Positions 12,262 to 16,330 of a stretch of 36,941 nt of DNA are shown piece after piece; the first letter of the stretch is position 1, and every line of letters starts with the position of its first letter. The notes beneath the pieces are model-generated. The model ran no database searches. It saw nothing but the letters and a program-made list of their open reading frames with translations, and had not been told where the DNA came from. The DNA comes from an uncultured bacterium. GTDB taxonomy: Bacteria > Bacteroidota > Bacteroidia > Chitinophagales > Chitinophagaceae. Both the position numbers and the translations under genes were made by a program. The stretch is taken from positions 1-36,941 of the forward strand of contig CAJBZC010000055.1 in NCBI GenBank assembly GCA_903959965.1. Reading direction: 5' to 3'.

Positions 12262-12729
12262 ATGATTCGTACACCGCTTTTTAAGTTCTTATTGCTGATG
12301 CCACTGGCTCTTTCTTTGTCTGCTTTGAAAGCCCAGGTGAAAAATCCGGTGAAATGGACACATACGGTCAAGGCGACGGGAGGAGGAAAGTATGTGGTCA
12401 GCATGAAAGCGGTACTGGAGAAGGGTTGGCATATCTATTCTCAGCATACGCCTGATGGGGGGCCGGTTCCCACCACTGTTGAATTCACGAAGAATCCGCT
12501 GGTTACATTTACCGGTACTGTCAAAGAGGTCGGTAAGCTGGAAAATCATTACGAGAAGTTATTTGGGGTCAATGTGAAGCAGTTTTCAAACGAAGTGACT
12601 TTTGTTCAGGACTTGTCCGTCAAAGGCAAGGTCAAGACGAATGTTAGCGGTAGCATTGAATTCATGATGTGTAATGATACCGAATGTCTTCCGCCGGCTA
12701 CCCAGCGTTTTTCGCTGACGCTACAGTGA
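12262..12729 (+). CDS. Secreted stand-alone DsbD alpha (N-terminal)-like domain protein
   Basis: Signal peptide, then KATGGGKYVVSMKAVLEKGWHIYSQHTPDGGPVPTTVEF...IEFMMCNDTECLPPATQRFSLTL, with the redox Cys pair (CNDTEC). Confidence 0.8.
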   Translation: MIRTPLFKFLLLMPLALSLSALKAQVKNPVKWTHTVKATGGGKYVVSMKAVLEKGWHIYSQHTPDGGPVPTTVEFTKNPLVTFTGTVKEVGKLENHYEKLFGVNVKQFSNEVTFVQDLSVKGKVKTNVSGSIEFMMCNDTECLPPATQRFSLTLQ

Positions 12730-12748
12730 ATCCCATCAAAAAATTCTT

Positions 12749-14731
12749 ATGGTTAAAAAAATATTATCCCTGCTGCTTTTTGCAGCGGGGATTTCTGCAC
12801 ATAGTCTGGCGCAGGAAGCACCCGTGGTTGGTTTTCAGAAGGAGCGGCTGAATGATTCCACGGTTCGGTTGTATTTTGATGTGAAGGGATCATCCGGCAC
12901 CCGCATTTATCGATTGCCGGATGGGCAGGATGTTTTGTATTCGGATATCGAGTTCGACAGTTCATCCAGGCCTTATATCACAGGGAAACCATCATCAATG
13001 GTTGCACCATTGCAGGAGCGTGACGAGGCATTGGAGGCGCAGACCTTTTTTCATCAGGATTCCGTGCGTTGGCGTCAGGACGTCAGGATTTCAACTACCG
13101 ACAGTGTGGTATTGAAGGGTGAATTGAGGTTCATGTACAAGCGTGGAGATGAATTTTTGAACGGATCGGAAACCTTTCGTTTCGAGATCGCTCCCGTCGC
13201 AGGTTCCTCTGATGCTTCGCCGATGGGAGACAGATCATTGTGGTGGATCTTCATTGCCGCTTTCGGTGGCGGCCTGTTGGCCTTGTTGACACCCTGTGTG
13301 TATTCCATGATACCCGTTACGGTGAGTTTCTTCACGAAGCGAAGTACAAACAGAACGCAGGGTATCCGGAACGCGATGTTTTATGCCGCTTCGATCATCA
13401 TCATCTTTACGTTGTTGGGTTTTCTCATAACCCTGGTATTCGGTCCGGCGGCTTTGAATAATCTGGCGACGAACTGGATTGCCAACCTGGTGTTTTTTGC
13501 CCTGTTTGTCATCTTCGGTATCTCTTTTCTGGGCGCTTTTGAGATCAACCTGCCATCATCCTGGATGAACAAATCTGATGCTCGTGCCGGCACGACCAGT
13601 TTCGTGGGCATCTTTTTCATGGCGTTGACCCTGGTGCTGGTATCCTTTTCCTGCACCGGTCCTATCATCGGGAACCTGTTGGTGTTGGCCGCCAAGGGAA
13701 GTTATTTGGGACCTCTGGTGGGGATGCTGGGATTTTCCGTCGCTTTGGCACTTCCCTTTGCCTTATTCGCCTTTTTTCCGAGCAAACTGAATATTTTAGG
13801 TAAGGCTGGTGGATGGTTGAATGCTGTGAAGGTTACGTTGGGCTTTCTGGAATTGGCGCTGGCGTTGAAGTTCCTGTCGAATGCCGATCTGGTGAAGGGC
13901 TGGCGCATCCTTGATCGCGAGGTTTTTCTAAGTCTCTGGATTGTGATCTTTGGTCTGCTGGGGTTATATCTGCTCGGTAAGATCAAATTGCATCATGATG
14001 ACGAGCTGCCGAAGAATGATTTCGGCCTTCCTTATTTGACGGTGACCCGACTGATGTTTGCGATACTTACGCTCAGTTTTACCGTGTACATGGTGCCGGG
14101 ATTGTGGGGGGCACCGCTGAAGGGGATCGGGGCGTTTGTACCACCCCTGGGCACTCAGGATTTCATTTCGACGTCGGGAGCCCAGCGATCTGTTTCCGAA
14201 ACCGATCATGATGATACAGGGTCCTCCGGATTACCGAAGCCGGTCAAATATCATGACCGGATGCGGATGTACGAGCCGGAGGTGGTGACAACATACGGGA
14301 TGTCCACGTATTTCGACTACGAAGAGGCCCTGGCCGTGGCGAGGAAGGTGGGAAAGCCTCTGATGATCGATTTCACTGGCATCAATTGTGTGAACTGTCG
14401 TAAGATGGAAGCGGAGGTGTGGAGTGATCCGGAAGTTATGAAGCGTCTGAAGGAGGATTTTGTGATCGTATCACTGTATGTTGATGTACAAAACATTGAT
14501 CTGCCCGAAAAAGAGCATTATTATTCAGAGGCGTTGACCAAGAAGGTTACCACCTTGGGAGACAAGAATGCTGACATGCAGGTCACGAGGTTCCAGGCCA
14601 ACAGCCAGCCATACTACTTCTTTGTCGACGGCGAAGAGAAGCGACTCGTATCGGAGGGATATGGTTATGATCCGAACATAAAGAAGTTCATCCGATTGCT
14701 GGATGATGCCAAGTCGGCCATGCAGCAATAA
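12749..14731 (+). CDS. DsbD-like thiol:disulfide interchange protein (N-terminal domain, transmembrane core, C-terminal thioredoxin domain)
   Basis: LLTPCVYSMIPVTVSFF and LVSFSCTGPIIGNLL transmembrane cysteines; C-terminal DFTGINCVNCRKMEAEVW thioredoxin-like CxxC. Confidence 0.9.
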   Translation: MVKKILSLLLFAAGISAHSLAQEAPVVGFQKERLNDSTVRLYFDVKGSSGTRIYRLPDGQDVLYSDIEFDSSSRPYITGKPSSMVAPLQERDEALEAQTFFHQDSVRWRQDVRISTTDSVVLKGELRFMYKRGDEFLNGSETFRFEIAPVAGSSDASPMGDRSLWWIFIAAFGGGLLALLTPCVYSMIPVTVSFFTKRSTNRTQGIRNAMFYAASIIIIFTLLGFLITLVFGPAALNNLATNWIANLVFFALFVIFGISFLGAFEINLPSSWMNKSDARAGTTSFVGIFFMALTLVLVSFSCTGPIIGNLLVLAAKGSYLGPLVGMLGFSVALALPFALFAFFPSKLNILGKAGGWLNAVKVTLGFLELALALKFLSNADLVKGWRILDREVFLSLWIVIFGLLGLYLLGKIKLHHDDELPKNDFGLPYLTVTRLMFAILTLSFTVYMVPGLWGAPLKGIGAFVPPLGTQDFISTSGAQRSVSETDHDDTGSSGLPKPVKYHDRMRMYEPEVVTTYGMSTYFDYEEALAVARKVGKPLMIDFTGINCVNCRKMEAEVWSDPEVMKRLKEDFVIVSLYVDVQNIDLPEKEHYYSEALTKKVTTLGDKNADMQVTRFQANSQPYYFFVDGEEKRLVSEGYGYDPNIKKFIRLLDDAKSAMQQ

Positions 14732-14743
14732 ACCATTATATCG

Positions 14744-14767
14744 GGCGGGAGGTGATCACTTCCCGCC
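14744..14767. terminator. Hairpin between convergent genes
   Basis: GGCGGGAGGTGATCACTTCCCGCC: 12-bp arms with one mismatch (G-U compatible). Overlaps the last codons of the minus-strand D-aminoacylase. Confidence 0.5.
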
Positions 14768-16330
14768 TGTTCTTTTCAGGGTTTGTCCGCTTCGTTGTCC
14801 GGTGTGTTGATTGTTTTCGACCACCGGGATTCCATTTACGATTACGAAGGGTATCCCTTCTGAAAACTGGTGTGGAACATCGAAAGTGGATCTGTCGCTT
14901 ACTTTTTCGGGGTCTAGTATGACGATATCGGCGGCAAATCCTTCTTTCAACAGGCCGCGGTCATTTAATCCGAATTTTTGGGCCGGCAGGGAGGTCATTC
15001 TGCGGATGGCTTCTTCGAAGCCGATGACACCCTGTTCGCGGACGTATCTTCCGAGTACGCGGGCATTGGTGCCATATCCACGAGGGTGGGGCATGCCTTT
15101 GCCGGAGCTCACACCGCCGTCTGCAGCAGGCATATTGAAGGGATATTTCATGAAATAGCGGACGTCATCTTCGTTCATGGTGTGATAGACCATCTGAGCG
15201 TTGCCTTTCATGAGCATGTCGAGGATGGTTTCGGCTTCGAATGCCGGTTTAGGTTTTCGGCCTTTCATTTTGTTGATCTCGCTGATGTTTTTGCCATTGA
15301 CCGTGGTGTCAGGACTATACATGGCTACGACTGCATAACTGTAATTCTTGTTTTTGGACTTTTTCAGAGTATTGGCCATGCCTTGGATGATCTTCTTTTT
15401 CAGGTCATTGTCTCTGATTCTTTTCCGAAGGGAGTCGAGTCCTCCATCGAGCGCCCAGTCCGGGACAGTGACGGCCAGGTTGGTGCTGCTGGCGGTATAT
15501 GGGTATTGATCGATCGTCACATCGAGGCCTTGTTTGCGGGCGTTGATCACCTGATCGAGCGTGGATGTTGACCGTCCCCAGTTTGACCGGCCGGCCACTT
15601 TGAAATGGGAGATCTGAACGGGGATGTCGGCTTCACGTCCGATGGTGAGGGCTTCTTCGATGGCCTCGGTCACTTTGCTGCCTTCGTTGCGCATATGTGT
15701 GGCATAAACTCCACTTTTACGTCCGGCGATACGTGCGAGGGAAACGATTTCTTCGGTTTTAGCATACATGCCGGGCAGGTAGATCAGGCCGGTGGAGAGT
15801 CCTACCGCTCCGTCGTCCATGGCATCTTGCATCAGGGAGTCCATTGTTCGTTGTTCTTCAGCGGTAGGAGCCTTATCGAGGAGTCCCATGCCGAGCCGGC
15901 GAATGGTATTATGGCCGGCCAGGGACGCGACGTTGATGGAAGTGCGCATGCTGTCCAACTTCTGGAAGAAAGTCCCCAGATCGTCGAAAGAATTTCCGCA
16001 GTTGCCGGTCACGACGGTGGTCACTCCGTCGCGGATGTAATTATCGGCGGTAGGCCGATCAAAAATACCTCCTTCGATATGTGCATGTACATCGATGAAA
16101 CCCGGTGTGACGTAAAGATTGCCGGCATCGATGGTTCGTGTGGCGGTATGTGGCAGGTTTTTACCCATGCCAATGATTCGTCCGTTTTTGATGGCGATAT
16201 CGGCACGGTACCAGTTATTGCCTGTACCATCGATGATCCTTCCGTTTTTAATGATGAGGTCGGCGGGTGTTTGGGCTGATGCGGTCAATCCAGCCAGGAG
16301 GCAGGCGAAGAATGTAATTCGGAAGGTCAT
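14756..16330 (-). CDS. N-acyl-D-amino-acid deacylase / D-aminoacylase (amidohydrolase)
   Basis: Signal peptide; ADLIIKNGRIIDGTGNNWYRADIAIKNGRI...VTPGFIDVHAHIEGG...GVTTVVTGNCGNS...YATHMRNEGSKVTEAIEEAL. Confidence 0.9.
   Translation of the reverse strand: MTFRITFFACLLAGLTASAQTPADLIIKNGRIIDGTGNNWYRADIAIKNGRIIGMGKNLPHTATRTIDAGNLYVTPGFIDVHAHIEGGIFDRPTADNYIRDGVTTVVTGNCGNSFDDLGTFFQKLDSMRTSINVASLAGHNTIRRLGMGLLDKAPTAEEQRTMDSLMQDAMDDGAVGLSTGLIYLPGMYAKTEEIVSLARIAGRKSGVYATHMRNEGSKVTEAIEEALTIGREADIPVQISHFKVAGRSNWGRSTSTLDQVINARKQGLDVTIDQYPYTASSTNLAVTVPDWALDGGLDSLRKRIRDNDLKKKIIQGMANTLKKSKNKNYSYAVVAMYSPDTTVNGKNISEINKMKGRKPKPAFEAETILDMLMKGNAQMVYHTMNEDDVRYFMKYPFNMPAADGGVSSGKGMPHPRGYGTNARVLGRYVREQGVIGFEEAIRRMTSLPAQKFGLNDRGLLKEGFAADIVILDPEKVSDRSTFDVPHQFSEGIPFVIVNGIPVVENNQHTGQRSGQTLKRTGGK

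Follow-up and report, generated by a model that had tools for sequence, protein, structure and literature searches.

The two-gene locus

The Chitinophagaceae are soil and water bacteria, and contig CAJBZC010000055.1 (36,941 nucleotides, analysed whole and called the window below), from a genome assembly of this family that is 92% complete (GCA_903959965.1), carries a two-gene variant of the thiol reductase DsbD. DsbD, which exports reducing power from the cell, is a textbook relay in which electrons are transferred from domain to domain within one chain. In the window, a 155-amino-acid (aa) protein made of a standalone alpha domain is encoded upstream of a 660-aa transmembrane reductase, on the same strand and with a gap of 19 bp (Table 1). 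The six redox cysteines of DsbD are divided between the two products, two in the small protein and four in the large one, and the alpha domain fused to the large protein has none.

The two cysteines of the 155-aa protein, C137 and C142, are the only ones it contains. They form the C...CxPP active site of the DsbD_N family (PF11412), which matches the protein with 35.8 bits against a cut-off of 25 (E 9e-9), and they align with C103 and C109 of E. coli DsbD. Its structure model, with a predicted local distance difference test score (pLDDT) of 92, has the N-domain of ScsB (6c29) and the nDsbD of N. meningitidis as top PDB matches. By eye, a Sec signal peptide seems to occupy residues 1-24.

The 660-aa open reading frame (ORF) is the sole DsbD_TM match (PF02683, E 7e-24) across the assembly. 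Its only four cysteines are C183 (LTPC) and C302 (FSCTGP), which form the membrane pair, and C547 and C550 (CVNC) in a C-terminal thioredoxin-like domain (Thioredoxin_7, E 1e-13) with which phmmer retrieved DsbD gamma and its homologue 3f9u. The original prediction, made from the window alone, was that the redox cysteines of alpha are present only in the standalone copy, that the fused domain had undergone C to K and C to F changes, and that the cysteines of the membrane core and of the C-terminal CxxC remain. All of this is what we find, K131 and F136 standing at the positions of the standalone's cysteines. Because of these two residues we class the 660-aa protein, from its sequence, as a DsbD-like variant and not as a canonical DsbD.

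Table 1. Features of the two-gene locus, in window coordinates.
Feature	Position	Strand	Evidence
Standalone DsbD-alpha protein, 155 aa	12262..12729	+	Pfam DsbD_N E 9e-9; model pLDDT 92
Standalone active-site hairpin C137-NDTE-C142 (CxxxxCLPP)	12670..12687	+	Cys pair in 75/75 aligned standalones
DsbD-type transmembrane reductase, 660 aa	12749..14731	+	DsbD_TM E 7e-24; Thioredoxin_7 E 1e-13
Fused Cys-less alpha domain (immunoglobulin (Ig) fold)	12815..13201	+	hhalign 99.9% vs standalones; model pLDDT 90
Ex-active-site hairpin KRGDEF, K131 and F136 replacing the cysteines	13139..13156	+	Alignment with the standalone and E. coli DsbD
Transmembrane domain (DsbD beta), C183 and C302	13238..13879	+	PF02683; both Cys motifs in 94/94 loci
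C-terminal thioredoxin-like domain (DsbD gamma), C547-VN-C550	14315..14665	+	Thioredoxin_7 / Thioredoxin_2
Strong terminator-like hairpin, 12 pairs, 8 G-C	14742..14769	+	Consensus match only; just 3' of the 660-aa gene

The fused region is an alpha domain by fold

Pfam finds no family, DsbD_N included, in the N-terminal 160 residues of the 660-aa protein, and in several relatives the DsbD_N match on the fused copy ends at model position 93-97, short of the cysteines. A profile of the standalones recognises the fused domain of the window at E 1.7e-9, and almost every other fused domain that is Cys-less at E 1e-6 to 1e-24. When 25 standalones and 26 fused domains were compared profile to profile (hhalign), the probability was 99.9% (E 1e-32) over 150 columns. 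Profile sequence searches against the PDB returned no DsbD matches for either the standalone or the fused domain, and fold comparison was therefore used. The AlphaFold2 model of the fused domain, built from a six-sequence alignment, has a mean pLDDT of 90, and its best Foldseek matches in the PDB are the DsbD-alpha entries 1z5y, 3pfu, 1jpe, 1vrs and 6dps. These matches are modest (template modelling score about 0.5-0.6, E 6e-4 to 2e-3), but DsbD-alpha accounts for almost all of the leading ones, with the E. coli and Neisseria domains at the top. The region could have proved to have some other fold; as modelled, it is an alpha domain.

Catalysis, on the other hand, appears to be lost from the Cys-less fused domains of the family. 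The former cysteine positions are held mostly by K or G, and by F or a one-residue deletion, and a shared new consensus, K/G-x-G-D/E-E-F/Y, lies at the old active site. The active-site residue His57, missing from the window's fused domain, is invariant in the standalones (75/75) and in the Cys-bearing fused domains (20/20) but is found in only 10 of the 68 Cys-less domains, which keep the structural positions G130 (60/68) and F150 (58/68). The Cys-less fused domains also evolve faster than their own standalones: within the Cys-less clades identity is 40-46% for the former and 58-67% for the latter, the fused domain being the less conserved in every pair compared. The Cys-bearing clade shows little difference, with 50% for the fused domain and 45% for the standalone. 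An aromatic residue of the cap loop was tried as another indicator of catalytic loss and dropped, as this column does not separate the groups. Separately, in 33 of the 68 Cys-less domains the linker immediately preceding the membrane domain has one cysteine, within a PxxxCG motif; this motif belongs to a second DsbD class (L061-L098, for example L061 and L063) and is absent from the window's protein.

Distribution and origin in the family

The family was surveyed through 94 DsbD loci, drawn from 100 Chitinophagaceae genomes and named relatives. Pfam DsbD_N is too insensitive for this purpose, as it misses the window's own fused copy, and the standalone profile was used instead. Most orthologues might have kept both cysteines of the fused domain; instead, 71 of the 94 loci lack the pair (a count that includes L060, whose N-terminus is of low complexity and cannot be recognised as alpha), 20 have it and three, L044, L057 and L058, encode an alpha-less DsbD beside a standalone. 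The membrane motifs of the LTPC and FSCTGP type occur in 94/94 loci and the CxxC cysteines in all complete proteins. Two DsbD ORFs of 474-495 aa (L086 and L087) stop before the C-terminal CxxC; a frameshift or a split gene is the probable cause.

In 80 of the 94 loci, the gene immediately upstream of DsbD encodes a standalone. Its Cys pair is kept in all 75 aligned copies, and likewise in the further standalones read from whole-genome searches. Six Cys-less loci (L005, L006, L007, L059, L064 and L092) have no adjoining standalone, and in all six cases a CxxxxC standalone is encoded elsewhere in the genome, such that none of the Cys-less genomes examined is without a Cys-bearing standalone. Eight Cys-bearing loci also lack an adjoining standalone, and in six of these genomes (one of which, G047, is only 79% complete) there is none anywhere; the fused domain is Cys-bearing in all six. 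This is the pattern expected, as far as gene content can tell, if one catalytic alpha is needed, in cis or in trans. A Fisher test of Cys loss against standalone presence, which ignores kinship, gives p 5e-5.

How did the Cys-less domain arise? In domain trees, all Cys-less fused domains form one clade with 98-100% support, with or without the cysteine columns, and the Cys-bearing fused domains of the Chitinophagaceae nest among the standalones. In the tree of the membrane core, the sister group of the window's Cys-less clade is a clade with Cys-bearing fused domains. We considered a separate loss of the cysteines by point change in the window's clade, holding its fused domains together with those of the sister clade, as the core tree has it; this constraint costs 154 log-likelihood units and is rejected by the approximately unbiased test (p 0.0004). 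The Cys-bearing fused domains therefore look like re-fused standalones. The simplest account of these trees would be one ancient Cys loss in the family, followed in some lineages by replacement of the dead domain with a copy of the standalone. The tandem duplication of alpha that had been proposed for the window thus holds as an architecture but not as a recent duplication, the Cys-less copy being an old separate lineage.

Among the loci read from the rest of the Bacteroidota every fused alpha is Cys-bearing, and the Cys-less form is found only in the Chitinophagaceae in this sample. The other arrangements are a single fused alpha, tandem fused alphas with a Cys pair in both (790-890 aa; L174, L178, L184, L194 and L199), or an alpha-less DsbD, about 490-570 aa long, whose gene immediately follows that of a Cys-bearing standalone (L153, L157, L159, L163 and L183, from other families of the phylum). 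Three further loci (L192, L196 and L204) have apparent extra N-terminal regions, probably over-extended starts.

Downstream of the window's pair, the hairpin listed in Table 1 lies between convergent genes and overlaps the 3' end of ORF 14756-16330 on the reverse strand, which by eye is amidohydrolase-like. From its sequence, the hairpin may terminate transcription.

Discussion

In E. coli DsbD, electrons pass from thioredoxin to the membrane domain, then to the C-terminal domain and on to the N-terminal domain, whose pair is C103/C109, for delivery to DsbC, CcmG and DsbG (PMC7347389). The two-gene system of the window has the same elements as the enzymes of E. coli and Neisseria, namely an alpha fold, a membrane Cys pair, a C-terminal CxxC and the same six redox cysteines in total. 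Whereas those enzymes are single chains with a catalytic fused alpha, here the fused alpha has no cysteines and the alpha with the catalytic pair is a protein of its own. We think it probable that DsbD is naturally split here, a second protein providing alpha in trans while the fused copy persists as an Ig domain without catalytic activity. By homology with E. coli DsbD, cytoplasmic thioredoxin would reduce the membrane pair C183/C302, which would pass electrons to the C-terminal CxxC (C547/C550), and this in turn would reduce the C137/C142 disulfide of the separate, secreted alpha protein, which would serve periplasmic clients. The fused Cys-less domain would then most likely act as a platform without catalysis of its own, to which the separate alpha docks or which shields the C-terminal domain.

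That a separate alpha carries the electrons while the fused one is structural was the core of the original prediction. It gains support from the loss of His57, from the faster evolution of the fused domain, from the presence of a standalone in every Cys-less genome and from the loci that pair an alpha-less DsbD with a standalone. The flow of electrons to the standalone, its physical interaction with the reductase and the role of the fused domain are steps that we infer. Several observations weigh against the split. When descent is taken into account, the association of Cys loss with the standalone comes down to only about three independent state changes, with which a corrected test cannot reach significance, and is no longer statistically secure. 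The standalone also adjoins 12 of the 20 fused domains that keep their cysteines and is therefore not merely a replacement, and in six genomes it is unlinked to the reductase. Lastly, the C-terminal domain could reduce clients directly.

This last point can be developed into an alternative in which no alpha partner is needed at all: the C-terminal domain would reduce TlpA/ResA-type clients, a mode that is conceivable for an alpha-less DsbD or for CcdA, and the standalone would be an independent reductase or itself a client. Alpha-less relatives do exist, the DsbD2 of Legionella reportedly has no alpha domain (PMC4491210), and we found no DsbC_N protein in the 92%-complete assembly. Nevertheless, we hold direct reduction to be improbable, as the standalone adjoins the reductase in most loci, is present in every Cys-less genome examined and is missing only where the fused alpha has kept its cysteines.

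The conserved charged motif now found at the ex-active-site hairpin would also fit a domain that has gained a new role, in the binding of a ligand, a metal or a client, unrelated to the positioning of the standalone. Nothing points to a specific ligand, however, and the Cys-less domain is always accompanied by a standalone alpha somewhere in the genome, so we give this little credence. It is equally unlikely that the fused domain is a decaying, functionless relic, an idea compatible with the standalone carrying the electrons and in line with its faster evolution, its absence from three family members and its invisibility to Pfam in the window, but at odds with an intact Ig fold kept in about 70 loci, with a new common consensus at the old active site and with fold positions that persist in a confidently modelled structure.

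The split of catalytic and fused alpha has partial precedents. ScsB of Proteus mirabilis (PDB 6c29) is reported to combine tandem Ig folds in the N-terminal region of a single chain (Furlong et al. 2018 JBC, doi 10.1074/jbc.ra118.001860, cited in PMC9675693). This structure is the top PDB match of our standalone and matches the fused domain too; however, both Ig units of ScsB are in one chain, whereas here each is in its own chain and encoded by its own gene. Legionella DsbD2 and CcdA resemble the window's reductase in that it would, like them, work without a fused catalytic alpha, but here a homologous Cys-less alpha is kept and a separate catalytic one is encoded beside it. The DsbD proteins of other Bacteroidota use the same domain families, reshuffled between cis and trans, but none of those read has a Cys-less fused alpha. 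Our literature search, which covered open-licence papers, found no description of the Bacteroidota arrangement. Katzen and Beckwith reportedly found that the domains of E. coli DsbD function together as separate polypeptides.

One consequence concerns annotation, which is corrected here because Pfam does not see the fused domain of the 660-aa protein and the small neighbour of this protein is easily missed as a redox partner. A more speculative extension of the split, possible but in our opinion doubtful, is that the fused Cys-less domain serves specifically as the receptor of the detached alpha, and that alpha is a diffusible shuttle, which picks up electrons at the membrane before moving away. 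If so, the tethered delivery domain of DsbD would have been turned into a mobile carrier throughout a bacterial family. If the split itself is real, its family-wide occurrence with the dead copy still in place would open the way to asking whether tethering serves speed, specificity or reach.
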